From NCBI GenBank assembly GCA_026400275.1, contig JAPLPK010000193.1:1-55906 (forward strand): 55,906 nt of DNA, in the 5' to 3' direction. Made by a program: the position numbers and the translations under genes. This stretch comes from Burkholderiales bacterium (GTDB lineage Bacteria; Pseudomonadota; Gammaproteobacteria; Burkholderiales; Burkholderiaceae_C). This document shows, one piece after another, positions 4,841-49,727 of the stretch; position 1 is the stretch's first letter; each line of letters begins with the position of its first letter. The notes under the pieces were generated by a model. The model saw only the letters and a program-made list of their open reading frames with translations. It made no database searches and was not told the DNA's origin.

Positions 4841-4880
4841 GACTTACACTCTGGGGGTGCGCACTTGTTGGTGCGCAACA

Positions 4881-5032
4881 GCGTTCTCAGGGCGGGGTGA
4901 AATTCCTCACCGGCGGTAATGGCAGCGATGCACAAGCCCGCGAGCGCCTGCAGATGGCCCGCCATCCGCAGGGTCAGCAGACTCCGGTGCGATTCCGGGG
5001 CCGACGGTCATAGTCCGGATGCAAGAGAACGC
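4881..5032 (+). promoter_or_regulatory. FMN riboswitch (RFN element)
   Basis: A classic RFN element. The closing helix P1 is perfect (GCGTTCTC at 4881 pairs with GAGAACGC ending at 5032). Inside are the conserved stretches GGGCGGGGTGAAATTCC, CACCGGCGGTAAT, the GATTCCGGGGCCGACGGT region and AGTCCGGATG. It binds FMN and controls the lumazine synthase gene that follows 90 bases downstream. The expression platform (5033-5121) has no clear terminator with a T-tract, and no strong Shine-Dalgarno is visible before the ribH ATG, so the mode of control is not evident. Confidence 0.95.
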
Positions 5033-5121
5033 GTTCCTGCAGCCCTTTGCCGTGCGCGGCGTTTGGCTGGGTGGGTGCGCGTGCGTCCTGGGTTTGGAAA
5101 CTTTTAATGTGTTGACGCCCT

Positions 5122-5601
5122 ATGACCACGACCGCAAAATTCTCCGGCAACATCCGCGTTGCCTTTGTCCAAGCCACCTGGCACGCCGACATCGTGAACC
5201 AGGCGCGAGACGGCTTTCTGGCCGAAATGACCCGCCAGGGCGTTGCCCGTGAATCCATTTCTGTGATTGAACTGCCCGGTGCTTTCGAGATTCCGCTGCA
5301 CGCCAAGAAGCTGGCGCAGTCGGGCAAATTCGATGCCATCGTGGCAGCTGGGCTGGTGGTGGACGGCGGCATTTACCGCCATGACTTCGTGGCCACGGCG
5401 GTGATCCAGGGCCTGATGTCGGTGCAGCTGGAAACCGGTGTGCCGGTGTTCTCTGCCGTGTTGACGCCCCACCATTTCCATGCGGGCGCTGAACACCAGC
5501 AGTTTTTCAGCGACCACTTCGTGCACAAGGGTGCAGAAGCTGCACAGGCCTGCCTGCGCACCGTGACCAGCCTGCGCCAGCTGAACGCGCTGACGCAGTA
5601 A
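5122..5601 (+). CDS. ribH: 6,7-dimethyl-8-ribityllumazine synthase, type II-like
   Basis: Lumazine synthase, 159 residues, makes the direct precursor of riboflavin from a ribityl-aminouracil and a butanone phosphate. N-terminal VAFVQATWHADI and the ELPGAFEIPL motif bind the pyrimidine substrate, followed by AAGLVVDGGIYRHDFVA. The C-terminal part (PHHFHAGAEHQQFF, then KGAEAAQAC) resembles the RibH2 or type II enzymes of Brucella and rhizobia rather than the E. coli type. RibH2 genes of those bacteria are also reported to sit behind an FMN riboswitch, as here. No other riboflavin gene is adjacent, so this is probably a second, flavin-regulated copy. Confidence 0.93.
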   Translation: MTTTAKFSGNIRVAFVQATWHADIVNQARDGFLAEMTRQGVARESISVIELPGAFEIPLHAKKLAQSGKFDAIVAAGLVVDGGIYRHDFVATAVIQGLMSVQLETGVPVFSAVLTPHHFHAGAEHQQFFSDHFVHKGAEAAQACLRTVTSLRQLNALTQ

Positions 5602-15723: not shown

Positions 15724-16596
15724 TCAGGCCGTGATGATCCAGCCCTCCAGTGGGTCCATATCGACGGGTAAGCCGTAGCGGGGAATGCCTAATGCATGCT
15801 GCCCTGCGGCCCATCCGGCCTGCAGCATGCACAGCACCGCATCCAGGGCGTCACCGCTGGCATCCGCCACCAGGCTTTCGCGCTGTTCGGCACTGATAGC
15901 CAGGCGCAGCCCCAGGCCTACCGCGCCATGGGCGCCCTGCCCCAATTCCAGCGCCTGCACCAAGTCTTTGCGGGCCTGCATGCGCTCACGCGTTTGTTTG
16001 GCCTTGTCATCGCTTTTGTAACTACGCCGCCCGACACCACGGGCACCCGGCTGCCATCCGTCAAGCACACGCCGCGCCAGCAAACCGGGGTAGGCCTCCA
16101 AGGCCACGCGCCGGGAGTCACCGCGATGCAAACCGGGGAAGTCGACTCCGGCGTCCAGCAACAAGGGAACACCCGCGTGCAACATATAGGCCACCGGTGG
16201 GTTTACCCACTTCATTGACGGGCTGGAGCCGGCCGCGAAATCGCAGCCGCGGTGGGCGAATTTGCCGCCCGCAGGCCGGGCGTCGCAGAAAGCCGCAAAC
16301 TGCGCCCGGACCTGGGCCCGGTCCAGGCTGGAAAAATGGCGTATACAGTCCACCCAGCAGAGCGGCCAACCCAGGCTTTCAACCAGTTCGCGGGGCAAGC
16401 CGAAGGGCAAATCGAATGCCCCCACCCAGTCTTGAGGCTGGGCAACTACGGCTGCAAAATCGGACAGGGAAGATATGCGCTCCAGCCGAGTCAACGCCAC
16501 GCATCCATCCGCGTGGGCGCCCCAGGCCAACACAATGTTTTTGCGCTTCGTCGGGCTACTGGAAAAATCACAGCCCAGAAGTGCAGGCAAGCCCAT
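15724..16596 (-). CDS. DUF429 domain-containing protein
   Basis: A 290-residue protein of the DUF429 family, which has an RNase H-like fold and is often called a predicted nuclease. The N-terminal GCDFSSSPTKRKN carries the first acidic residue, VGAFDLPFGLPREL the second, and EAYPGLLARRV and the C-terminal DASGDALDAVLCMLQA the others. Function is not known. It is convergent with the ATPase gene (12 bases between) and stands alone on its strand. Confidence 0.8.
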   Translation of the reverse strand: MGLPALLGCDFSSSPTKRKNIVLAWGAHADGCVALTRLERISSLSDFAAVVAQPQDWVGAFDLPFGLPRELVESLGWPLCWVDCIRHFSSLDRAQVRAQFAAFCDARPAGGKFAHRGCDFAAGSSPSMKWVNPPVAYMLHAGVPLLLDAGVDFPGLHRGDSRRVALEAYPGLLARRVLDGWQPGARGVGRRSYKSDDKAKQTRERMQARKDLVQALELGQGAHGAVGLGLRLAISAEQRESLVADASGDALDAVLCMLQAGWAAGQHALGIPRYGLPVDMDPLEGWIITA

Positions 16597-16627: not shown

Positions 16628-17050
16628 TTAGACGCGGCCCACAATGGATGCGGTGGCCATCAGCTCTTCCAGCAGGGCCAGCGAGACTTTGCCCGACACG
16701 GAATAGGGGTCCAGCTCTGGCTTCTCTGCATATTTCAAGAGAATGGACTGGTTCAGACGCTGGATGTTCACCTGGCCCATGGTCCAGCCACCAAAACGTC
16801 GCTCGGAGATTTCTTCGAAATGCAGCAGCGCCACGTCTTTATGGCGTGCATCGCGCTGGATATGGCCATACAGCTCATTGACCGGCATACGACCGCCTTC
16901 AATGGCCTGCAAAAAGATACCACCGCCATAGCAAAGAATGCCGGTGATGCCGCAGGTCGGGTTGTATTGGCGCGACTGGGCCAGGATGGCCTCAATCGCA
17001 GCAGGGCTGGTATCCAGGGCGCGGCTGGCGTAGAGCAGACGTACAAGCAT
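16628..17050 (-). CDS. BLUF-domain blue-light sensor
   Basis: A short BLUF protein of 140 residues that should bind FAD and respond to blue light. The key positions are present: Tyr7 (LLYASR), Asn30, Gln48 (FLQAIEG), Trp89 and Met91 (GGWTMG). The BLUF core ends near residue 95. The last 45 residues are the helical cap usual in stand-alone BLUF proteins such as PixD, with no output domain. The ATG at 17050 is only 4 bases after the folE stop, so it is translated from the folE transcript. A longer start upstream would overlap folE and lacks support. Confidence 0.93.
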   Translation of the reverse strand: MLVRLLYASRALDTSPAAIEAILAQSRQYNPTCGITGILCYGGGIFLQAIEGGRMPVNELYGHIQRDARHKDVALLHFEEISERRFGGWTMGQVNIQRLNQSILLKYAEKPELDPYSVSGKVSLALLEELMATASIVGRV

Positions 17051-17054
17051 GGCG

Positions 17055-17795
17055 TTAGCCCTTTCTGGGGAGGAGAGACAGGAATTCACGGCGCAGGCTG
17101 GAGTCCTTCAGGAATGCACCGCGCATGACCGAGTTGATCATCTTACTGTCCACATCTTTCACACCGCGCCAACCCATGCAGAAATGGCTGGCCTCCATCA
17201 CGATGGCCAAGCCGTCCGGCTGGGTCTTCTCCTGGATCAGGTCGGCCAGTTGCACCACGGCTTCTTCCTGGATCTGGGGGCGGCCCATGATCCACTCGGC
17301 CCGGCGCGCATATTTCGACAAGCCGATCACGTTTGTGTGCTCGTTGGGCAGCACGCCGATCCATATGTGGCCCATTACAGGGCACAAATGGTGGGAGCAA
17401 GCGCTGCGCACCATGATCGGGCCGACGATCATCAGCTCGTTCAAATGCTCGGCGTTGGGGAATTCGGTGATGGTGGGAGCCGCCACATAGCGCCCCTTGA
17501 ACACCTCTTTCAGGTACATCTTGGCCACTCGGCGGGCGGTGTTCTCGGTGTTGTGATCGTTTTCGGTATCGATCACCATGCTGTTCAGCACACCCTGCAT
17601 TTGCACGGTGACCTCATCCAGCAAGGCCTCCAATTCACCAGGCTGGATGAACTCGGCAATATTGTCATTGGCGTTGAAACGCTTGCGCGCGGCCTGCAGC
17701 CGTTCGCGAATTTTGACGGATACAGGTGTGCCTTCCCCGTCTCGGGCATCAGCCAGCGCAATGGGATTCATAGCATCAGGTGTTTTCATTAACAT
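17055..17795 (-). CDS. folE: GTP cyclohydrolase I
   Basis: FolE, 246 residues, converts GTP to dihydroneopterin triphosphate, the first step to folates and pterins. The zinc and substrate residues are visible: SACSHHLCPVMGHIWIG, NVIGLSKYARR, and EASHFCMGWRGV. The N-terminal 60 residues are an extra extension relative to the shortest bacterial enzymes. ATG 17795 and ATG 17789 are alternative starts. It is the first gene of a two-gene operon with the BLUF sensor. Confidence 0.96.
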   Translation of the reverse strand: MLMKTPDAMNPIALADARDGEGTPVSVKIRERLQAARKRFNANDNIAEFIQPGELEALLDEVTVQMQGVLNSMVIDTENDHNTENTARRVAKMYLKEVFKGRYVAAPTITEFPNAEHLNELMIVGPIMVRSACSHHLCPVMGHIWIGVLPNEHTNVIGLSKYARRAEWIMGRPQIQEEAVVQLADLIQEKTQPDGLAIVMEASHFCMGWRGVKDVDSKMINSVMRGAFLKDSSLRREFLSLLPRKG

Positions 17796-18339: not shown

Positions 18340-19566
18340 TTACTGGGTGGAGGCGCCGGCTTCGAACCACTGTTTGATCATCGCGCGCTCGGCATCGGTG
18401 ATGCCGGTGGCGTTGTTCATCGGCATGATTTTCGTCACCACTGCCTGCTGGTACACCGCCTGGGCGTGCTGCTGCAGGGCGGCCGGAGAGTCCAAGCGCA
18501 CATTCTTCATTTGCACCTGGGGACCGTGGCACATATAGCAGCGCTGGGCCAGCACGGGCTGTATTTTTTCATAAGAAAATACGGCCGAAGCGCTTGTATT
18601 ACCTGCGGGAGTAGCTACGGAACTTGTAGCATCCACGGGCGCAGGCCGCATCCACACAATGGCCCCCACGATCACCGCCAGGCCAACCAGGGCATACGCC
18701 AAAGGATGGCGGTTGCGACCCAGCAAATAGCCGTGGCGCATCACGAAGAACTGGCGTATGGCCGCACCGGCGAACATCATCAGCACGAGCACCAGCCAGT
18801 TCTGCGGGTGGCTGTAGGTAAAGCTGTAGTGGTTGCTCAGCATGGCAAACAACACCGGCAGCGTGAAATAGGTGTTGTGCACGCTGCGCTGCTTGCCGCG
18901 CTGCCCATGGATCGGGTCCACTGGCTGGCCGGCCTTGATGGCGGCCACCACGGTGCGCTGGCCCGGGATGATCCAGAAGAACACATTGGCGCTCATGCTG
19001 GTGGCAATCATCGCGCCCACCAGCAGAAAGGCTGCACGCCCAGCAAACCAGTGGCAAGCCAGCCAGGCCGCCACGCAGACCAGCACCGCCACCAGTGCGC
19101 CGACGATGGCGTCGCCATGCTTGCGCTTGCCAAACAGCTGGCAGATGCTGTCGTAGCACATCCAGAACACCACCAGGAACGACAGCGCCACACCAATCGC
19201 CGCGCCGGGCGACCAGTTCATCAGCGACTTGTCGATCAGATAGGTACTGGCATTCCACAGATAGGAAACGGTGAACAGCGAGAAGCCGGTCAGCCAGGTG
19301 GAATAGCTCTCCCAGTAGAACCAGTGCAGATGCTTGGGCAGCTGCGGCGGCGCCCCGGCGAACTTCACCGGGTGGTAGAAGCCGCCGCCGTGCACGGCCC
19401 ACAGCTCGCCGCTCACACCTTGTTTTTTGAGGTCGTCGTCGACCGGCGGCGTCAGGCTGCTGTCGAGAAAGACAAAGTAAAAGGAAGAGCCAATCCAGGC
19501 GATGGCGGTGATGACGTGGACCCAGCGCAGCAGCAGGTTGGCCCAGTCGAGGTAATAACTTTCCAT
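18340..19566 (-). CDS. puuD: Membrane urate hydroxylase PuuD with cytochrome c domain
   Basis: PuuD, 408 residues, oxidises urate to 5-hydroxyisourate at the membrane and passes electrons to a C-terminal cytochrome c. The DUF989 membrane domain (about residues 1-310) has eight or nine hydrophobic segments, with WVHVITAIAWIGSSFYF and the GGGFYHPVKF motif. The c-type haem site is CYMCHGP near residue 345. The linker between the two (roughly SSVATPAGNTSASAVFSYEK) is encoded by an in-frame copy of the palindromic repeat. The ATG at 19566 has GGTGAG upstream and is preferred over a GTG four codons earlier. Confidence 0.93.
   Translation of the reverse strand: MESYYLDWANLLLRWVHVITAIAWIGSSFYFVFLDSSLTPPVDDDLKKQGVSGELWAVHGGGFYHPVKFAGAPPQLPKHLHWFYWESYSTWLTGFSLFTVSYLWNASTYLIDKSLMNWSPGAAIGVALSFLVVFWMCYDSICQLFGKRKHGDAIVGALVAVLVCVAAWLACHWFAGRAAFLLVGAMIATSMSANVFFWIIPGQRTVVAAIKAGQPVDPIHGQRGKQRSVHNTYFTLPVLFAMLSNHYSFTYSHPQNWLVLVLMMFAGAAIRQFFVMRHGYLLGRNRHPLAYALVGLAVIVGAIVWMRPAPVDATSSVATPAGNTSASAVFSYEKIQPVLAQRCYMCHGPQVQMKNVRLDSPAALQQHAQAVYQQAVVTKIMPMNNATGITDAERAMIKQWFEAGASTQ
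18560..18622 (-). repeat. Palindromic repeat, copy D, in the puuD linker
   Basis: Read on the minus strand the order is GTAGCTACTCCCGCAGGTAATAC, then AGCGCTTCGGCCGTATTTTC and an A/T tail. This is the family pattern TAGCT..GCGC..GGCC-T-rich. It lies in frame between the membrane and haem domains of puuD. Confidence 0.75.
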
Positions 19567-19718
19567 GTGCACTCTCACCCTTGATGGCGCCCGTACAGGG
19601 CACCCGTAGTTTCTCTGCCTACCACTGCGGGCACTGTAGGCAAAACGAGGTCGCGAACAAAAGCTGTGAGAGAAAGCCTTGCACCGCTGCGACCTTAACC
19701 TTTGATTCTATGGATTAA

Positions 19719-20525
19719 TCAAGAGTTAAGGCTTTGCAACAACTGTGCCGCAACCGCGACCGCGATCACCTCGGGCTCTTTGCCCGTAATGCCCGGCACG
19801 CCGATCGGGCAGGTCACCCGGGCCAGTTCGGCCTCGTCAAAGCCTCGGGCGAGCAACCGCTGACGAAAGCTGGCCCATTTGGTCTTACTGCCGATCAGGC
19901 CGATAAAAGGCAGGTCGCCCTGGCTGCGCTGGCGTTGCAGGCAGGCCGCCACGATGTCCAGATCTTCGGCGTGGCTGAAGCTCATGATCAGCACCTGGCT
20001 GCCGGGCCGCAGATCGGCCACTGCCTTTTGTACCGGGTCGGAGTGCTCGCAGTGCACACGGGCCGGCAGATCGGCGGGGAAGATACCGTCGCGGCTATCT
20101 ATCCAGTTCAGCTGGAATGGCAGGCGCGACACCACCTGCACCAACGCATGGCCCACATGGCCACCACCAAACAAGGCCACCGGCCTGAGCTGTTGGGCGC
20201 ACTGCTGGCGCAGGCGCGGTGCATCCGCCGCCGCGATGGACTCAAAACGCAGGTAGACCACGCCGCCACAACACTGGCCCAGGCTGGGCCCCAGGGGGTA
20301 GCGCAAAGTCTTTACGGAGACCTCGCCGACCCGCAAGCGCGCCCGGGCTTCAGCGATGGCCTGGAACTCCAGATGGCCGCCGCCTATCGTACCCACCAGA
20401 CGGTCGGCAAACACCGCCATCCAGGTCCCGGACTCACGCGGCACCGAGCCTTGGGTAGACTCTACGCAGATAAGCACCGCAGCCTTGGACTGCAAGTGGT
20501 GGAGTAAAACGTCAATATGTGTCAC
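19719..20525 (-). CDS. xdhC: Xanthine dehydrogenase accessory protein XdhC
   Basis: XdhC, 268 residues, loads the sulfurated molybdenum cofactor into xanthine dehydrogenase. The N-terminal XdhC/CoxI domain has the conserved ESTQGSVPRESGTWMAVF, GTIGGGHLEFQAI and GQCCGGVVYL. A C-terminal Rossmann domain follows (PVALFGGGHVGHAL, then SFSHAEDLDI and FIGLIGSKTKWA). The GTG at 20525 fits family length. A GTG at 20570 would add 15 unmatched residues and run close to the divergent gene. The xdhA and xdhB genes are not in the window. Confidence 0.9.
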   Translation of the reverse strand: MTHIDVLLHHLQSKAAVLICVESTQGSVPRESGTWMAVFADRLVGTIGGGHLEFQAIAEARARLRVGEVSVKTLRYPLGPSLGQCCGGVVYLRFESIAAADAPRLRQQCAQQLRPVALFGGGHVGHALVQVVSRLPFQLNWIDSRDGIFPADLPARVHCEHSDPVQKAVADLRPGSQVLIMSFSHAEDLDIVAACLQRQRSQGDLPFIGLIGSKTKWASFRQRLLARGFDEAELARVTCPIGVPGITGKEPEVIAVAVAAQLLQSLNS

Positions 20526-20590
20526 AGCAAGCAATCTGGCCAAGAAAGCAGTATGCACGGCTGCGCGCACTGCCCCAAGCCTTCAAAATA

Positions 20591-33528: not shown

Positions 33529-33684
33529 ATGCCACCTACCTCGTTCAAAGGCAACAAACAGTCCTTGCCGAGCAAACTCTGCGCAGCCTGTGGCCGCACC
33601 ATGACCTGGCGTAAACGCTGGGCCAAGACCTGGGACGAGGTGAAGTACTGTTCAGACGCCTGCCGCAAGGCAAAAAATGCTTAG
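33529..33684 (+). CDS. DUF2256 zinc-finger-like mini-protein
   Basis: A 51-residue protein of the DUF2256 family. It has a CAAC pair (C18, C21), GRTMTWRKRWAKTWDEVKYCS and a second CxxxC pair (C41, C45), which suggests a zinc site. DUF2256 genes are often found beside photolyase-related genes, as here: its last 8 bases overlap the start of the Fe-S photolyase gene. The function is unknown; nucleic-acid binding is an inference from the basic, tryptophan-rich centre. Confidence 0.88.
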   Translation: MPPTSFKGNKQSLPSKLCAACGRTMTWRKRWAKTWDEVKYCSDACRKAKNA

Positions 33685-35248
33685 GCACCTGGTGCTTGTG
33701 CTGGGCGACCAGCTGAACCTGGACTCTTCGGCTTTCGATGGCTTCGACCCCGCGCAGGACGCGGTGTGGATGGCCGAGGTGGCCGAAGAGTCCACCCACA
33801 TCTGGTCCAGCAAGCAGCGCATCGCGCTCTTCCTGGCCGCCATGCGCCACTTTGCGCAGGCCCTGCAAACCGCAGGTCGGCCACTGCACTACACCCACCT
33901 GGACGACCCAGACAACCACGGCAGCCTGGCAGCCGAACTACAGCTTGCTATAGAAAAACTAGCGCCTAGCGCAATCATTCTGTGCGCCCCAGGCGATTTT
34001 CGTGTTTTTAAATCTGTCCAGGCCGTAGTCCGGCAAGCCAGCATCCCCCTGGACGTGCGCGACGACCGGCACTTCTACGCCACCGTGCGCGAGTTCGCCG
34101 CCCACGCCAAAGACCGCAAGACCATTCGCCTCGAATACTTCTACCGCGCCCTGCGCAAACAGCACGGCGTGCTGATGGAAGGCGACCAGCCCGCAGGCGG
34201 CCAGTGGAACTTCGACGCCGAGAACCGCGAAGCCTTTGGCAAGGCTGGCCCCGGCGCCGTGCCACCCCGCAGCACCTTCGCGCCCGATGCAAGCACCCAG
34301 GAAGTCATTGCCCTGGTCAACAACCGCTTTGCCAGCCACCCCGGCACGCTGGACAGCTTTGCCTGGCCCGTCACGCGCGCGCAGGCACTGCAGTCGCTGG
34401 ACGCGTTCATCCAACAGCGCCTGCCGCTGTTCGGCCGCTACCAGGACGCGCTGTGGCCGGGCGAGGCCTGGCTCTACCACTCGCACATCTCCGCCGCGCT
34501 GAACCTCAAGCTGCTGGACCCGCGCGAGGTGGTGGCCGCCGCCGTAGCGGCTTATGAAACCGGCCACGCACCGCTGGCCTGTGTTGAAGGCTTTGTGCGC
34601 CAGATCCTGGGCTGGCGCGAATACGTGCGCGGCATCTACTGGACGCAAATGCCCGGCTACGCCGAGCGCAATGCGCTGCAGGCACACGAACCCCTGCCCG
34701 CCTGGTACTGGACCGGCCAGACCGACATGGCCTGCCTGCGCGACGCCATCACCCAAACCCTGGCCCACGGCTACGCCCACCACATCCAGCGCCTGATGGT
34801 CACCGGCCTGTTCGCCCTGCTGCTGGGCGTGGAGCCACAGCAGGTGCACGCTTGGTATTTGTCGGTCTACGTCGATGCGGTGGAATGGGTAGAGCTGCCG
34901 AACACCCTGGGCATGGCGATGTATGCCGACGGTGGGCTGATGGCCAGCAAGCCCTACATCGCCACCGGCAAATACATCGAGCGCATGGGCAGCAAGCAGC
35001 ACTGCGCCAGCTGCCGGTACGACCCTGCCCAGCGCGAAGGTGAGCGGGCCTGCCCCTACACCACGCTGTACTGGGACTTTCTGGCGCGCCACGAAAAGCT
35101 GCTGGCCGCCAACCCGCGCATGGCCTTGCAGGTCAAAAACCTGGCCCGGCTGAGCGACGCGCAAAAGCAGGCCGTCGCCGAGCGCGCCGCCGCTATACGC
35201 GATGGCACTGTGGGGGTAAATAGCGCAGCGGCCCGCCATGGCATTTAG
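33677..35248 (+). CDS. Iron-sulfur photolyase/cryptochrome (PF04244, PhrB type)
   Basis: A 523-residue FeS-BCP family flavoprotein, related to the Agrobacterium (6-4) photolyase PhrB. LVLGDQLNL opens the N-terminal antenna domain, and the FAD domain has WREYVRGIYW and YADGGLMASKPYIATGKYIERM. The four [4Fe-4S] cysteines C353, C443, C446 and C459 match PhrB C350, C438, C441 and C454 in spacing. A stretch near residues 91-112 (LAIEKLAPSAIILCAPGDFRVF) is encoded by a repeat-like sequence. Repair of (6-4) DNA lesions by light is the likely role. Confidence 0.92.
   Translation: MLRHLVLVLGDQLNLDSSAFDGFDPAQDAVWMAEVAEESTHIWSSKQRIALFLAAMRHFAQALQTAGRPLHYTHLDDPDNHGSLAAELQLAIEKLAPSAIILCAPGDFRVFKSVQAVVRQASIPLDVRDDRHFYATVREFAAHAKDRKTIRLEYFYRALRKQHGVLMEGDQPAGGQWNFDAENREAFGKAGPGAVPPRSTFAPDASTQEVIALVNNRFASHPGTLDSFAWPVTRAQALQSLDAFIQQRLPLFGRYQDALWPGEAWLYHSHISAALNLKLLDPREVVAAAVAAYETGHAPLACVEGFVRQILGWREYVRGIYWTQMPGYAERNALQAHEPLPAWYWTGQTDMACLRDAITQTLAHGYAHHIQRLMVTGLFALLLGVEPQQVHAWYLSVYVDAVEWVELPNTLGMAMYADGGLMASKPYIATGKYIERMGSKQHCASCRYDPAQREGERACPYTTLYWDFLARHEKLLAANPRMALQVKNLARLSDAQKQAVAERAAAIRDGTVGVNSAAARHGI
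33947..34013 (+). repeat. Palindromic repeat, copy G, inside the Fe-S photolyase gene
   Basis: TGCTATAGAAAAACTAGCGCCTAGCGCAATCATTCTGTGCGCCCCAGGC then GATTTTCGTGTTTTTAAAT follows the consensus with a few changes. The encoded residues still align with the usual GD/E-R segment of the family, so the copy either fell in a tolerant place or the similarity is partly chance. Confidence 0.5.
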
Positions 35249-35251
35249 GGG

Positions 35252-36562
35252 GTGTTAGCGTCACGGTCCTTCGACGTATTGGCTGACATGACGCTCCACT
35301 CCCCCACCTTGGCAAGGGCACAGGCCCATATGCAGACCGTGCGCCCTGCCGACTATGCGCGCAGCCGCAATGCCATAGACGGTGCCGTGACCGGCTTGTC
35401 GCCGTACATCACCCACGGCCTCCTCACCCTGCCCGAGGTGCTGGCCAGCGTGGCCGCGCAGCACAGGCTGGACATGCAGCACAAATTCGTTTTCCAGCTG
35501 GGCTGGCGCGAGTACTTTCAGCATGCGTGGGGGCACCGGGGCGCAGGCATCTTGCAGTCGCTGCATGCTGGCCCGCTGCCCGACAGCAGCTACGCCAGCG
35601 AAGTACCCGCAGACATCCGCCAGGCGCGCACAGGCATACCCGCCATCGACACCGCAGTGCGCACGCTGTATGCCACAGGCTACCTGCACAACCATGCGCG
35701 CTTGTGGCTGGCCAGCTACGTGGTGCACATCCGCAAAGTGCATTGGCGCGCCGGCGCGGACTGGATGGTTGCCCACCTGCTAGACGGCAACCTGGCCAGC
35801 AACCACCTGAGCTGGCAGTGGGTGGCGGGCACTGGCAGCAGCAAGCCCTATCTATTCAACGCCGAGAACGTGGCCAAATTTGCCCCACCCGACTGGCATA
35901 GCCCGGGCAGCCTGATCGACACGTCTTACGAAGCGCTGGACACCATCGCCCGCAACCCCCTAGCCCTGGTGGAACCTTCAAATGTCCAGGGTACGGACGA
36001 GCCAGCGCTGTCGCACACCCCACCAGACGCCACTGCACCCGATGCAGCACTGGTCGCTGGCCGCGACGTCTGGCTGGTCCACCCGTGGGCGCTGCGCCTG
36101 CCGCCGGATCTGCCGGCTGGCACGCTGTGCATCGGCATCTACCTTGCAGAATTTCATAGCACCTGGCCCTGGAGCCACCTGCGCTGGAGCTTTGTCAGCA
36201 CCCGCATGGCCGAGCTGACCGACCTGCGCTGGCACGCCGACACCGCCGCGCTGCAACAGGCCCTGCGCGGCGCGCGTTCGGTGCGCACCGTGGCCGACCC
36301 GCATATTGATTTGGGCGCCATCGCCCAGGTGCAGCCAGCACCCACCCTGTTCGCCGAAGTGGCCCACCCATGCACCTCGTTCTCCCAGTGGTGGACGCGC
36401 AGCACCCGCAGCACCCCGCATTTGCACGACCTGCCCGGCTTGGCCGGCCTGTCGGCAGGCCCCTTGTTTGACCCTCCCCCAGAAAGAGACGCCCATGACG
36501 ACACCCACAACCTCCCCCCAGATAGCCCTGGTGACCGGCGCCCGCGGTGGCATCGGTCGTGA
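35252..36562 (+). CDS. Short photolyase-like FAD protein with extra C-terminal domain
   Basis: A 436-residue protein that has only the FAD-binding half of a photolyase at its N-terminus (about residues 20-225: SRNAIDGAVTGLSPYITHGLL, WREYFQHAW, NHARLWLASYVVHIRKVHWRAGADW, LASNHLSWQWVAGTGSSKPYLFN). The usual N-terminal antenna domain is absent. After a linker (about 235-265), residues 268-350 form a new region, VWLVHPWALRLPPDLPAGTLCIGIYLAEF, with a beta-alpha-beta look and a conserved-looking WSHLRWSFV. This may be a displaced antenna domain. It starts with GTG 3 bases after the Fe-S photolyase stop; ATG 35288 is an alternative. Its 3' end overlaps the SDR gene by 68 bases. Confidence 0.8.
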   Translation: MLASRSFDVLADMTLHSPTLARAQAHMQTVRPADYARSRNAIDGAVTGLSPYITHGLLTLPEVLASVAAQHRLDMQHKFVFQLGWREYFQHAWGHRGAGILQSLHAGPLPDSSYASEVPADIRQARTGIPAIDTAVRTLYATGYLHNHARLWLASYVVHIRKVHWRAGADWMVAHLLDGNLASNHLSWQWVAGTGSSKPYLFNAENVAKFAPPDWHSPGSLIDTSYEALDTIARNPLALVEPSNVQGTDEPALSHTPPDATAPDAALVAGRDVWLVHPWALRLPPDLPAGTLCIGIYLAEFHSTWPWSHLRWSFVSTRMAELTDLRWHADTAALQQALRGARSVRTVADPHIDLGAIAQVQPAPTLFAEVAHPCTSFSQWWTRSTRSTPHLHDLPGLAGLSAGPLFDPPPERDAHDDTHNLPPDSPGDRRPRWHRS

Positions 36563-37250
36563 AGTCGTAGCACAGCTGCGCAAGGCCGGCCACCGCGTAG
36601 CAGCCGTAGGCCGCGACGCCGCCACGCTGGCCGAGGTAGCCGCCGATGCGCACATCGCCGCCGACACCACCACGCCCGAAGGCGCGGCAGAAGCCATCGC
36701 CGCCTGCGTAGCCCAGTTGGGCGGCCCGCCCACGCTGCTGGCCCACTGCGTGGGTAGCACGCTGATTGCGCCCCTGCACCGCAGCACGGCAGCCCAGTAC
36801 CGCGAGGTGATGCGCATCAACCTGGACAGCGCCTTCTTCATGCTGCAAGCCTGGGTGGAAGCTCTGCGCGTGGCCAAGCTACCGGGTGCCGCCGTGCTCG
36901 CGTCCAGCGTGGTGTCGCGCATAGGCGTGGCCAACCACGAGGCGATTGCCGCAGCCAAAGGCGGCATCGAAGCCCTGGCCCGCAGCGCTGCCGCCACCTA
37001 CGCCCCGCTAGGCCTGCGCATCAACGTCGTCGCCCCCGGCATGACCGACACCCCCATGACCGCCAGCATGCTGCGCATGGACGCCATGCGCGAAGGCGCG
37101 GGCAAGCAATACCCGCTAGGCGGCGTGCAGACCGCCGTGCAGGTGGCAGACGCCATGGCCTGGCTGCTGAGCGACGGCGCGGCGCGCATTACGGGGCAAG
37201 TGATTGCGGTGGACGGCGGGTTTACCACCGTGCGGCCCCTGGTACGGTAG
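36495..37250 (+). CDS. SDR family oxidoreductase without the usual catalytic tyrosine
   Basis: A classical short-chain dehydrogenase fold of 251 residues. The nucleotide motif TGARGGIG is at 14-21, NLDSAFFMLQ is the NNAG-like region, and the C-terminal AARITGQVIAVDGGF is standard. The active-site YxxxK reads IAAAK, with isoleucine in place of tyrosine (NHEAIAAAKGG), while the lysine and the serine (ASSVVSRIG) remain. It may be catalytically altered or act in another role. ATG 36495 lies inside the 3' end of the photolyase-like gene, so the two are co-transcribed. Confidence 0.85.
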   Translation: MTTPTTSPQIALVTGARGGIGREVVAQLRKAGHRVAAVGRDAATLAEVAADAHIAADTTTPEGAAEAIAACVAQLGGPPTLLAHCVGSTLIAPLHRSTAAQYREVMRINLDSAFFMLQAWVEALRVAKLPGAAVLASSVVSRIGVANHEAIAAAKGGIEALARSAAATYAPLGLRINVVAPGMTDTPMTASMLRMDAMREGAGKQYPLGGVQTAVQVADAMAWLLSDGAARITGQVIAVDGGFTTVRPLVR

Positions 37251-37261
37251 GTGTGGACGCT

Positions 37262-37330
37262 AGTAGAAATTGCTATTGAATTCGTAGCTACTACCGCATA
37301 TAGCACATGCGCCAGAGCTATTTTTCACCA
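37262..37330 (+). repeat. Palindromic repeat, copy H
   Basis: TTGCTATTGAATTCGTAGCTACTACCGCATATAGCACATGCGCCAGAGCTATTTTTCACC, in order. It is the best example of the long left end (TTGCTATTGAATTCGTAGCTAC), which it shares with copy B in gpsA. It starts 12 bases after the SDR stop. Confidence 0.75.
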
Positions 37331-37653
37331 ACATAGTTGCCAACAGTTGCACACCTACTGGCACGGTCAAGCTGCGCCTACCGGTTTATGCCCACCACGG
37401 TGACGCCATGCGGGCACGCATGCCTATCCATCGCTTGCACCTGCCGCAAACAAAAAATCCCTGCAACTTTGTGGTTGCAGGGATTTCAGGAATGGGCCTA
37501 AGTGGAGATATGAACTGCGGTAAAACCCAATTCACCGGGCCTTCTACTTTCAATAAGTTACCAACCATTCCCCGCCAGCGAAGACCACTTCACCAGATAC
37601 CTGGATGCGAGCAAGGTTCGGCGCACGCATTCGATGGCATAACTGCCCAAGGT
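37331..37653. other. Intergenic region between SDR and PEP-CTERM genes
   Basis: About 320 bases without a gene. It holds the terminator at 37455-37486. The rest (37490-37653) shows no gene, no tRNA and no repeat that I recognise. Confidence 0.6.
37448..37487 (-). terminator. Terminator for the PEP-CTERM gene
   Basis: A 13-bp stem (AAATCCCTGCAAC / GTTGCAGGGATTT) with a 6-base loop. On the minus strand it is followed by a run of Ts (TTTTTTGTTTG), so it acts in that direction, 167 bases beyond the PEP-CTERM stop. Confidence 0.85.
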
Positions 37654-38211
37654 TCAGCTACGGCGACGACGCACAGCTGCCAAGCCAACCAAAGCCAGCC
37701 CAACCAAGGCAATAGAGTTGGGTTCCGGGACGGTCGAAGTTGCAACAACCGGGGTGCCGTCGCTGAAGACCAAATTGCTGCGGTCTAAATCAGAAGCAAC
37801 AATCCTCACCGAATACAAATCGCCACTCGCAGCGCTAACGCGAAATCCAATAGAAAACACCCCGTCCAATAATTCCGGTATGGATTCTAAGGAGCCCAAA
37901 ACTAGCAGTTGTCGATTGAAACGCTGGGATAAGAACGAACGTTGCAGCCCTACTCCATCCAAATCACCAAAGATATCGATATCTACAGATAAATGATCCC
38001 ACGAAGCCCCGGAAACATTCAAGCGGATAAGCTGATAGGCCCCATTGGGCAATTTCGGTAAGCTAAAGTTGTAAATCAAATCGTCACTTGCACTTGTTCC
38101 CACAGGCACTGGAACCGCATGCGCCGAAGTGCCTACCAGGGCCCCCACCATGCCGGCGGCAAGGCACAAATGCTTAAGAGACAAAGCGGTGAAGATCTTT
38201 TTGATGCGCAT
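37654..38211 (-). CDS. PEP-CTERM sorting-domain protein
   Basis: An exported protein of 185 residues. It has an N-terminal signal peptide ending SAHAVP (about residue 33), a beta-rich middle (residues 40-155) without a known domain, and a C-terminal PEP-CTERM signal: VPEPNS, then a hydrophobic helix (IALVGLALVGLAAV) and a basic RRRRS tail. The signal is removed by an exosortase, which is not in the window. Its GC content is visibly lower than that of its neighbours, which hints at horizontal origin. Confidence 0.88.
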   Translation of the reverse strand: MRIKKIFTALSLKHLCLAAGMVGALVGTSAHAVPVPVGTSASDDLIYNFSLPKLPNGAYQLIRLNVSGASWDHLSVDIDIFGDLDGVGLQRSFLSQRFNRQLLVLGSLESIPELLDGVFSIGFRVSAASGDLYSVRIVASDLDRSNLVFSDGTPVVATSTVPEPNSIALVGLALVGLAAVRRRRS

Positions 38212-38422
38212 GGCCGAATAACTTTTCTTGACTATTGAATGGGAGGGGTGTTTCCCGCCGTTATCAGCACCATGTGTGCCACGTCAAAATAGTTTTTTTA
38301 AATCATCAACTTGAGCGGAAAATTTGCACGGCAACCAAGGCAGTTGTCAAGAAATCCGACAGGGCTAACAGATGTTGGCACTGAGCAATCAATAGGTCAG
38401 CGCTGATAGGCAGCAATAGTGG

Positions 38423-39973
38423 TCAAAACAAGTCGAGCTGGGCTGACGGCGCTGGCGTACGTGGCGGTCGGTTGCGCTTGCTGCCGGTAGTGGTGGGCAA
38501 GCCAGCTTTGCGCGACCCATGCTTGTCCTGGATGGCGTTCGCCTCAGCCTTGGCTTTCGGGGTGCCGCGCAGACCATAAAGCCGCTCTTTGGCCTGCTTC
38601 ACTGCCGCAGCGTCGTCCACGATGGGCGCGGGGTAATGCTGGCCTATCACGCAGCCTGCCGCACGCTGCTGCGCCGCGCCCATCAGCCACGGCGTAGGCA
38701 GCAGAGACAAGGGCACGTTGGCCAATTCGGGCACCCAGCGGCGGATGAACACGCCGACCGGGTCGTGGTCTTGCGCCTGCTTGGTGGGTGAGTAGATGCG
38801 CAAGGTATTGATGCCGGTGGTGCCGCTTTGCATCTGCATCTGGCACCAATGGATGCCGGGCTCGAAGTCCAGAAACTGCCGCGCCAGAAACAAGCCGGTC
38901 TCGCGCCAGTGCAGCCACAAATGGTATGACGCAAAAGACACCAGCATGGCCCGCATGCGGAAGTTCAGCCAGCCGGTGGCTTTGAGGCTGCGCATACAGG
39001 CGTCCACCATCGGGTAGCCGGTCTGGCCGGCGCACCAGGCGTCAAACCGCCCGGCGTCAAAATCGTCTTCACGCAGGCCGTCGTACACGCGGGCAAAGTT
39101 CTGCTGTTCGATCTGGGGCGCGTCCTCCAGCTTTTGCATGAAATGGCAATGCCAGTGCAGGCGCCCGGCAAAGCTGCGCAGCGCGCCCAGCCAATGGCGA
39201 TCTTCCCCATCACCCGCCTCGCGGACGGCGCGTATCCGCACTTGCGTGGCCTGGTAAACCTGGCGCACGGACAGTGTGCCAAACGCCAGGTGCGGGCTCA
39301 GGCGGCTGCAGCCGTCTTCTGCTGTCAAAGGGCTGGACAAAGACTTCGCATAGGCCCCACCCCGCATGTGCAGAAAGCTCTGTAGAACGCCGTGCGCCGC
39401 TGCCTCGCCGGCGGCCTGCACGCGGCGGCCGTGGGGTTGCAGGCCCAGCTGCTCCAGCGTAGGCAGATCGGCCAAAGCCACCCTGGCGCCTTGCCAGCCC
39501 AGCGGCATATCAACCTGGCGCTGGCCCATGCGCTGCTGCCAACGCTCGGCCCAGCCGTTGCGCGAGCGCAGACGGCGCACCACGCCGGTCTGCGCAAACT
39601 CTTGCCAGGCGATACCGTGGGCGCGGCACCAGTCGGCCACCGCCACGTCCCGCGCATAGCTCCAGCCCGGGCCGGTTTCCTCATGGCTCAGCAGATGCGC
39701 CACGCCATGGCTGCGCCGCAGCTGTGCCAACGCCTCAATCACCGGCCCCACGTGCACCAGCAGTGGCAAGCCGCGCACAGCCAATGCCTGGCGCAACTCC
39801 GCCAGGCATTGCAACGCAAACTCCACATGCTGGCTATCGCACTCGGGGCTGTGCAGCCATTCCGGCTCCAGCACGAACAGGCCCAGCACCGGCCCGGGCA
39901 AAGCCGCAGCGGCAGCCAATGGCGCGTGGTCGGCCACCCGCAAATCTTTCTTGAACCATACGACAGTGCACAT
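38423..39973 (-). CDS. Class I-like deoxyribodipyrimidine photolyase/cryptochrome
   Basis: A 516-residue photolyase/cryptochrome-family protein. The N-terminal antenna domain opens with VVWFKKDLRVADHAPL and VLGLFVLEPEW. The FAD domain has AYAKSLSSPLTAEDGCSRLSPHLAFGTLS, GYPMVDACMRSLKATGWLNFRMRAMLVSF and INTLRIYSPTKQAQDHDPVGVFIRRWVPEL. The last 40 residues are basic and low-complexity. ATG 39973 fits the family; a longer upstream frame gives no match. CPD repair is likely but a signalling role cannot be excluded. It is a third member of the family in 7 kb. Confidence 0.9.
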   Translation of the reverse strand: MCTVVWFKKDLRVADHAPLAAAAALPGPVLGLFVLEPEWLHSPECDSQHVEFALQCLAELRQALAVRGLPLLVHVGPVIEALAQLRRSHGVAHLLSHEETGPGWSYARDVAVADWCRAHGIAWQEFAQTGVVRRLRSRNGWAERWQQRMGQRQVDMPLGWQGARVALADLPTLEQLGLQPHGRRVQAAGEAAAHGVLQSFLHMRGGAYAKSLSSPLTAEDGCSRLSPHLAFGTLSVRQVYQATQVRIRAVREAGDGEDRHWLGALRSFAGRLHWHCHFMQKLEDAPQIEQQNFARVYDGLREDDFDAGRFDAWCAGQTGYPMVDACMRSLKATGWLNFRMRAMLVSFASYHLWLHWRETGLFLARQFLDFEPGIHWCQMQMQSGTTGINTLRIYSPTKQAQDHDPVGVFIRRWVPELANVPLSLLPTPWLMGAAQQRAAGCVIGQHYPAPIVDDAAAVKQAKERLYGLRGTPKAKAEANAIQDKHGSRKAGLPTTTGSKRNRPPRTPAPSAQLDLF

Positions 39974-40110
39974 GGCGACACTGTCGCCGATTTCAGTTTC
40001 CGCCGGTGTGCAGCCCGCAAATGCCCCCCACAATGTGTTGCCGGCGGGCTGAGGATTGCCGATACCTTCCGTTAACATGCCGCATTCCATAGCAGAGCAG
40101 TTTGGCCACC

Positions 40111-41919
40111 ATGACACCTCGTATGCGCACCGCCTCTCCCGTGCTCCCTGCCACCCGCCCGGTCTATGCGGCCTGCCTTGCTGCGCTGGTGTTGCTGCAA
40201 GCTGCTTGCTCGTCCACGCCGCTGCCGCCCTGGCCCTCGTCCGCCGACACAGCTGCGCCGACACGCACTGCGCCGACACCGGCACCCACACCTAGCAAGC
40301 CAGCGGCAGAGCTCCCAGCGGCCGTGGCCAGCCCGGTTAACACCCCGCAGATCACCACGCCTGCCGATGCCGGTGCCGACGCCACAGAGAGCCCGGCAGT
40401 GGCTGCGCGCTTCCCTGCCCCGTCGCTGGCCTACAGCACACCCGGCCTGCAAAGCGGACGCAACAGCTTTACCACCAACCCGGAAATCATCGATTGGCTC
40501 AACGAGCTGGCAGACCACCCCAGCCAGGGGGTCAAGGCCACAGTACTGTCCATGGGCCAGTCGCAGCAAGGCTCGCCCCTGGTGGCCCTGCTGCTGACCC
40601 GGGCCTCCAGCCCCGATGCACCCACGGTGCTGGCCACCGGGCGACCCACCGTACTGCTGGTGGGGCAGCAGCATGGCAATGAACCCGCCGGCAGCGAAGC
40701 GCTGCTGGTGGTGGCCCGTGAGCTCAGCCAGGGCCTGCTGGAGCCCTTGCTGGACAAGATCAACGTCATCCTGGTGCCACGCGCCAACCCGGATGGAGCC
40801 GCCGCCAACCAGCGTGCCACCGCCAACGGCATCGACATGAACCGCGACCACCTGCTGCTGAACACCCCCGAAGCCCGCGCCCTGGCCCAGCTGGAGCGCA
40901 GCTACCAGCCCATGGTGGTAGTGGACGCACACGAGTACACGGTGGCGGGCCGCTACCTGCAAAAGTTCGGCGGCATCCAGAAGTACGACGCGCTGCTGCA
41001 GTACGCCATGACGGCCAATCTGCCCGAATTTCTGACCCGCGCCTCCGAGGAGTGGTTTCGCCGCCCCCTGCTGACCGCCCTCAAGAACCAGAAGCTCAGC
41101 AGCGAGTGGTACTACACCACCAGCAACACGGCGGACGACCTGCTGGTCTCCATGGGCGGCACGCAGCCCGATACCGGGCGCAACGTCAACGGCCTGAAAA
41201 ACACGGTCAGCATGCTTGTCGAGACCCGGGGCGTGGGCATTGGCAGCCAGCACATTCAGCGCCGCGTGCACACCCAGGTCACGGCCATGGTCAGCATGCT
41301 GCAAAGTACGGCCAGCCGCGCCGATGAACTGAACCAGCTGCGGCCCTATATGGAGCGTGACGTAGCCAGCCAGGCCTGCCGTGGCAGAGCCGTGGTGGAA
41401 GCCGGCCCCACCAGCGCCCAGTACACACTGACCCTACTGGACCCGAACACCGGCGCCGACCGCAAGGTCACGGTGGACTGGAATTCCGCCCTGGAGCTGC
41501 AAAACACCAAAACCCGCAGCCGCCCCTGCGGCTACTGGCTGTCGGCCAGCTCCACACTGGCCGTGGACCGCCTGCAGATGCTGGGCGTGCAAGTGATGCG
41601 GGTGATGGAGCCTGGCGCCCTGATGGGCGAGTCCTACCTGGAAAGCAGCCGCAGCGAAGGCAGCCGGCAAGACGTGCGCGGCACCATCCAGGACGGCACA
41701 CCCATCGTCCAGACCAAGGTCACGCTGATACCGGGGGTGGTGGATGCGCCGCAAAACAGCTTTTATGTGCCGCTGAGCCAGCCCCTGGGCAACCTGGTGT
41801 TGGCGGCCCTGGAGCCGGACACGCAGAACAGCTATTTCGCCAACCACCTGTTGGATGGCTTGCGTGACCTGTCACGCGTCACGGCCGAGCCGACGGTACG
41901 GATGGAGAAGCTGCCCTGA
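40111..41919 (+). CDS. M14-family carboxypeptidase-like lipoprotein
   Basis: A 602-residue secreted protein with a lipoprotein signal (lipobox LLQAAC, about residue 33) and a proline/threonine/alanine linker (residues 40-105). The M14 zinc carboxypeptidase domain follows: GQQHGNEPAG (HxxE), PRANPDGA, GIDMNRDH and the third ligand in DAHEY. The C-terminal 200 residues are beta-rich without a clear match. ATG 40111 fits the lipobox. Substrate is likely peptidoglycan-type or a peptide, but is not known. Confidence 0.85.
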   Translation: MTPRMRTASPVLPATRPVYAACLAALVLLQAACSSTPLPPWPSSADTAAPTRTAPTPAPTPSKPAAELPAAVASPVNTPQITTPADAGADATESPAVAARFPAPSLAYSTPGLQSGRNSFTTNPEIIDWLNELADHPSQGVKATVLSMGQSQQGSPLVALLLTRASSPDAPTVLATGRPTVLLVGQQHGNEPAGSEALLVVARELSQGLLEPLLDKINVILVPRANPDGAAANQRATANGIDMNRDHLLLNTPEARALAQLERSYQPMVVVDAHEYTVAGRYLQKFGGIQKYDALLQYAMTANLPEFLTRASEEWFRRPLLTALKNQKLSSEWYYTTSNTADDLLVSMGGTQPDTGRNVNGLKNTVSMLVETRGVGIGSQHIQRRVHTQVTAMVSMLQSTASRADELNQLRPYMERDVASQACRGRAVVEAGPTSAQYTLTLLDPNTGADRKVTVDWNSALELQNTKTRSRPCGYWLSASSTLAVDRLQMLGVQVMRVMEPGALMGESYLESSRSEGSRQDVRGTIQDGTPIVQTKVTLIPGVVDAPQNSFYVPLSQPLGNLVLAALEPDTQNSYFANHLLDGLRDLSRVTAEPTVRMEKLP

Positions 41920-49540: not shown

Positions 49541-49727
49541 ATTCCGCTGACCTCCGTTTCCCTGCAGGAAACATTAGCTGGTTAAAGCTGGGTTTAATTA
49601 ACCTTCCGCGACACGGCTGGACCGATTGGCGGATGCGACTGTGGCAGGAAGGGCCTAGTTCGGACGGGATTATCGCCGCAATGCGGGAGGTAACCACCGC
49701 GTTACATGCAAAGAACCGGTGAACGCT

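Follow-up and report, generated by a model that had tools for sequence, protein, structure and literature searches.

We found that folE, the gene for GTP cyclohydrolase I, and a gene for a short BLUF blue-light sensor form a conserved pair across Burkholderiales, an association that is real and that apparently has not been reported. Functional coupling of the two genes is likely, and direct binding of the BLUF protein to FolE is plausible. The pair lies in what we call the window, the whole stretch of 55,906 nucleotides that was analyzed (contig JAPLPK010000193.1 of a Burkholderiales bacterium). The full-text literature that we searched, with subscription journals largely outside it, contained no report of folE-BLUF pairing; what is known already is light control of folE in Pseudomonas, at the level of transcription and via LitR and LOV.

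In the window, folE (17055 to 17795, minus strand) encodes a protein of 246 amino acids that matches the GTP_cyclohydroI profile in a Pfam search (PF01227; E = 1.3e-41, 142.5 bits against a cutoff of 27). Because it falls below the cutoff for the TIGR00063 equivalog (143.7 versus 181.6 bits), we assign it to a divergent Burkholderiales subfamily of FolE. Residues C133, H135, H136, and C206 align with the FolE zinc-site motif, are at least 97% conserved among 107 relatives, and are presumably zinc ligands, an assignment taken from E. coli FolE. The BLUF gene (16628 to 17050, minus strand) encodes a PixD-type short BLUF photoreceptor of 140 amino acids, which matches PF04940 over domain positions 1 to 92 of 92 (E = 1e-28, 99.7 bits against a cutoff of 25). 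The folE stop codon TAA occupies positions 17057 to 17055 and the BLUF start codon ATG positions 17050 to 17048, so that the junction (17038 to 17075, minus strand) reads TAA, the 4-nucleotide spacer CGCC, ATG; this agrees base for base with an earlier note on this DNA, which had placed the BLUF ATG 4 bases after the folE stop. The BLUF residues listed there (Y7, N30, Q48, W89, and M91) are likewise all present in the window protein. A purine-rich AGAAAGG within the 3' end of folE, just upstream of the BLUF start, could serve as a ribosome-binding site. The longer BLUF reading frame chosen by the ORF finder, with a GTG start at 17089, is probably not the real one, since the aligned start is ATG in every one of 232 sequenced pairs. 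This BLUF is the only one found in its genome, the window FolE as a query likewise found a single FolE match there, and the closest named relative of the BLUF protein is that of Rhodoferax sp. OV413 (98% identity).

We searched a sample of 251 genomes from the same family for BLUF and FolE, joining coordinates with sequence and making the final tally by hand. FolE was present in 241 genomes, and in 216 of these a BLUF gene lay directly downstream of folE on the same strand; given these counts, the adjacency is far beyond chance. Of the remaining 25, four, with folE at a contig edge or only partly matched, are better treated as undecided. Counted by genus, the pair occurs in about 122 of the 137 FolE-bearing genera. 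The gap between the genes has a median of 4.5 nucleotides and is 20 nucleotides or less in 191 of the 232 sequenced pairs, none of which is a natural fusion of FolE and BLUF. All 80 loci from named genomes, which were picked by BLUF similarity, carry the pair, and they include Rhodoferax, Polaromonas, Variovorax, Acidovorax, Curvibacter, Simplicispira, Pseudorhodoferax, and others. BLUF was absent from 8 of the 10 genomes that lack FolE versus 20 of the 241 that have it (Fisher p = 3e-7, with no correction for phylogeny or for how complete the assemblies are). In one genus, two genomes have a canonical-type FolE and no BLUF. Since roughly one in ten FolE-bearing genomes of the family manages without BLUF, we conclude that FolE does not need it.

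The pair extends beyond the family. It occurs in eight other families in a sample of 140 genomes spread across the order (our families f5, f6, f14, f22, f23, f28, f39, and f47) and in one genome of f32 from our phylum sample, making nine other families of Burkholderiales, with Cupriavidus metallidurans among the carriers. The adjacency is thus not unique to one genome, a case that the earlier note would have counted against its idea, but spans the 216 family genomes and nine more families. Outside the Comamonadaceae-like set, the named carriers are C. metallidurans CH34, C. campinensis, and Cupriavidus sp. EM10. In the pairs of other families, FolE belongs to the same divergent subfamily (about 70 to 75% identical to the window FolE), which a very long branch parts from canonical FolE in the FolE tree. 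A BLUF gene never came directly after canonical FolE (28 to 41% identity) in the loci or coordinate pairs checked. On the C. metallidurans chromid there is a single FolE match, 66% identical to the window FolE, with a linked-type BLUF 23 nucleotides after it. As the only FolE match on the chromid, it is probably FolE_IA (Rmet_3990), a chromid-encoded zinc enzyme that has been purified, is active alone, and has had its gene deleted (PMC10882993). That paper mentions neither BLUF nor any word beginning with "light."

Outside the order, our genome samples contained the FolE subfamily in one family, f200, and both f200 genomes carry the pair (loci L179 and L180). The single f200 sequence in the FolE and BLUF trees is placed within Burkholderiales in each, which suggests that the two genes moved there together by joint horizontal transfer. 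These two loci are also the only ones in which folE adjoins BLUF among 28 BLUF loci of the class. The linked BLUFs occupy one side of a single branch that separates them from unlinked BLUFs of related taxa, with modest support (SH-aLRT 79). Five genomes have a BLUF-less folE and a BLUF gene at another place; none of these BLUFs is of the linked type, their best scores being at most 84 bits, compared with at least 143 bits in 95% of linked-to-linked comparisons, and no linked-type BLUF away from folE was found in these five genomes.

Around the pair, both flanks vary and no third gene is constant, leaving only folE and BLUF themselves constant across loci. Neighbor names come from reading the sequences, unless a Pfam match is given, and ORFs were filtered by codon position against shadow ORFs. 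In the window, a DUF429 protein gene (15724 to 16596, minus strand; PF04250, E = 3.7e-5) follows BLUF after 31 nucleotides. A gene of this family lies downstream of BLUF in 65 loci, an EamA-like transporter gene in 40, and other genes elsewhere, and the DUF429 gene is a possible third operon member that is common but not constant beside the pair. Upstream, a ClsB-like phospholipase D gene is often present, and beyond it come EEP-family, Nudix, and aspS-like genes, whereas the window instead has a DUF4440 gene on the opposite strand together with urate-oxidation genes. The latter, urate oxidase (Urate_ox_N) and XdhC-like genes at 18340 to 20570, place purine catabolism beside a GTP-consuming enzyme; they are not usual neighbors of the pair in other genomes.

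The earlier note had also seen a rich photobiology context here. An FMN riboswitch (4879 to 5034; RF00050, 105.9 bits) does lie directly upstream of ribH (5122 to 5601), which encodes a stand-alone lumazine synthase, and lumazine is the antenna of some photolyases. There are also three photolyase-family genes (33677 to 35248, 35252 to 36562, and 38423 to 40291), although to call all three photolyases goes too far, as the middle one matches the FAD-binding domain only. However, the riboswitch is about 11.6 kb from the pair and the photolyase-family genes are 16 to 23 kb from it, outside the conserved unit. The cluster at 33677 to 40291 comprises a DPRP photolyase-related gene, the gene for the FAD-binding-domain-only protein, an SDR gene, and a photolyase gene on the opposite strand. 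The window gave no match to a LitR-like MerR. None of the three photolyase-family proteins had a tblastn match in the flanks of the 232 conserved pairs (mostly 1.5 kb, up to 6 kb for 80 pairs), a search that unrelated photolyases would escape. We therefore set aside a photolyase link to the pair, and the cluster looks incidental; the idea that pterin antennae for photolyases are the motive for the pairing gains no support from gene context. Elsewhere in the window, a sucA RNA motif (RF01070, 78.9 bits; 49545 to 49638) lies just upstream of sucA (46667 to 49540, minus strand).

BLUF has been lost repeatedly; the FolE tree, which is weakly resolved, implies about 15 changes. We took FolE positions that are invariant in the presence of BLUF and compared how often they are violated in BLUF-less lineages and in held-out BLUF-bearing lineages of the family. 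These sites were violated 8.9 or 8.7 times as often without BLUF (for two slightly different genome sets), compared with ratios of 1.7 for GpmA and 2.1 for SucA in the same genomes, a comparison that involves two control genes and few independent losses. With three deep lineages left out, the ratio was 6.9 for FolE versus 1.25 for the control SucA. In one genus with a recent BLUF loss, the FolE distance to a BLUF-bearing relative was 0.21, and the SucA distance was 0.03 to 0.06. Overall FolE-to-control distance ratios did not differ significantly, and the effect therefore sits at formerly frozen FolE sites. Eight of the 19 BLUF-less lineages showed zero violations at sites invariant in every BLUF-bearing FolE. 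Read from these alignments, the relaxation of FolE upon BLUF loss points to coupling at the protein level. The earlier proposal that a light sensor might tune or bind FolE is strengthened by this relaxation, as it is by the order-wide pairing amid changing flanks.

Around FolE residues 117 to 125 and 219 to 237, changed sites are overrepresented (p = 0.003 to 0.07 depending on the threshold, for a region picked post hoc). These segments correspond in the alignment to the human allosteric pocket next to GFRP, the animal GTP cyclohydrolase I feedback regulator, at D127/E128, M230, R241, and E243, residues whose roles are described in PMC7750480. We treat this apparent enrichment near the GFRP-side pocket as a lead only.

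BLUF-less copies of the FolE subfamily occur in several settings. Genome G174 has two FolE copies of the subfamily 18 kb apart (contig C142, 4124 to 4813 and 22626 to 23318), and the 22626 copy is followed by BLUF. The related genome G062 has a BLUF-less copy only, with a gpmA distance similar to that of the 4124 copy in G174. The BLUF-less FolE of G062, at least, may thus be a second gene copy and not a relaxed original. On a Caballeronia plasmid (L436, 1471 to 3998), a BLUF-less FolE of the subfamily has a MerR regulator on one side and an SDR gene on the other; a second, on a Roseibium plasmid (L435, 2435 to 4048), lies beside an ECF-type sigma factor. Both loci are possibly light-inducible clusters of another kind. 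Such clusters do not give a general account of BLUF-less FolE, as a sigma factor is near only one of the surveyed BLUF-less loci (L282).

In the linked BLUF proteins, Y7, S9, N30, Q48, W89, and M91 do not vary (107 of 107 distinct sequences), so photochemistry is probably kept. The solved proteins closest in sequence to the window BLUF are TePixD and Slr1694. The predicted structure (pLDDT 88, pTM 0.83) is a single PixD-like domain with C-terminal helices at residues 101 to 107 and 120 to 132. Searched against the PDB, its first 23 matches were all PixD chains, over the full length, with TM scores of 0.83 to 0.89; BlrB and BlsA gave 0.76 to 0.80. Cyanobacterial PixD (Slr1694 / Tll0078) is thus its nearest solved counterpart in both sequence and fold, with a length of about 140 amino acids and the same photochemical residues. 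PixD acts on the partner PixE in phototaxis (PMC5899715), whereas the neighbor of the window BLUF is a metabolic enzyme.

PixD forms rings, crystallizing as two stacked pentamers (PMC5899715), and we liken the window BLUF to it from sequence and predicted fold. The FolE decamer has D5 symmetry, and GCH1, the mammalian FolE, is bound by pentamers of GFRP that sit along its five-fold axis (PMC7750480). The match in five-fold symmetry between PixD and FolE is suggestive, no more. The likeness to GFRP is one of proposed mode, in which a small regulator sits on the five-fold axis of the decamer; GFRP senses phenylalanine and BH4, not light, and we claim no homology with BLUF.

We propose that folE and the BLUF gene form a light-responsive unit in which BLUF, co-produced with FolE, would act directly on the FolE protein, and blue light would thereby alter how fast the first committed step of folate and pterin synthesis runs. 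BLUF would most likely bind the FolE decamer with matching five-fold symmetry, perhaps docked along the axis as GFRP is. The light effect that we favor would be activation, or release of inhibition, by blue light, which would replace light-damaged folates. Physical binding, ring stoichiometry, the direction of the light effect, and its benefit are parts of the scheme that we infer. Our belief in such a unit, with BLUF acting on FolE most likely by five-fold docking, is evenly balanced; the more specific picture of a stand-alone BLUF ring that caps the FolE decamer and gates the committed folate step by blue light is tentative and somewhat doubtful.

Two attempts to detect a complex were uninformative. 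A tethered FolE-BLUF model, built from a relative that has both genes in frame with the stop codon read as Trp (a modeling device only), reached a pTM of 0.51 with no relative placement and no interface. In a mean-field direct coupling analysis, 205 pairs amounted to only 57 effective sequences, which left it underpowered, and inter-protein pairs were below expectation among the top scores. Weighing against the proposal are also the lack of fusions among the 232 pairs, the tenth or so of FolE-bearing genomes that manage without BLUF, and the activity of C. metallidurans FolE_IA alone. The outcome of the two attempts would also fit an alternative in which the genes are simply co-transcribed: folE would be a mere host gene for expression of BLUF, which would signal to another partner such as a transcription factor, a motility protein, or an enzyme of c-di-GMP metabolism. 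Partners of this sort are known for short BLUFs, PixE for PixD and BluR for BluF (PMC5899715), and FolE works without BLUF (PMC10882993). Yet co-transcription alone predicts neither the relaxation of FolE sites upon BLUF loss nor the strict pairing with one FolE subfamily, and no gene for another partner stays beside the pair. We consider this explanation unlikely, though it deserves serious attention.

A second possibility is a link through flavin and pterin chemistry, wherein BLUF would sense flavin or redox state, or would protect FolE or its photolabile product, and light would be secondary. Pterins, folates, and flavins are all light-sensitive and metabolically close, and GTP is the starting point of both the FolE reaction and riboflavin synthesis. 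However, the invariance of Y7, Q48, and W89/M91 in all 107 sequences is what selection on the light reaction predicts, and we judge a role of this kind to be rather improbable.

BLUF might also feed back on transcription or translation of the pair, the two proteins never touching. There is a precedent for light control of folE expression in Pseudomonas, where LitR (PmlR2) and SB-LOV are encoded beside folM-folE-folX and folE rises 1.6- to 3.3-fold in light (PMC9758184). That locus resembles ours in that a blue-light sensor gene region adjoins folE; it differs in that the sensor is a LOV protein, not a BLUF, that it acts via a transcription factor, and that the gene order and the FolE neighbors are other ones. 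The plasmid-borne MerR and ECF-sigma genes beside BLUF-less FolE would also fit control of expression. Nevertheless, the linked BLUF lacks a DNA-binding domain, the pair has no regulator gene as a constant neighbor, and loss of BLUF affects constraint on the FolE protein, all of which leaves this account quite improbable. Gene order can persist in a family and the linked BLUF looks to be of single origin, but a pair that arose once and was inherited without functional coupling is scarcely credible when a spacing of a few nucleotides is kept over ten families while both flanks change, when a family outside the order has the pair too and both of its genes branch within Burkholderiales, and when the photochemical residues are perfectly kept.

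BLUF sensors are common, and few have known partners; for the linked BLUF, hundreds of species offer a candidate, FolE, the entry enzyme of a pathway targeted by antifolates. Deletions of the probable BLUF-linked folE already exist in C. metallidurans CH34, which makes the question of light testable in existing strains. If BLUF does act on FolE as we propose, it would be, through much of the order, a light-operated bacterial counterpart of GFRP, a BLUF acting in trans directly on an enzyme of primary metabolism, and the pair would offer a compact way, in two genes, of controlling metabolism with light. Nonphotosynthetic bacteria of soil and water would then adjust their folate to light, and this would account for the retention of BLUF in so many Burkholderiales.
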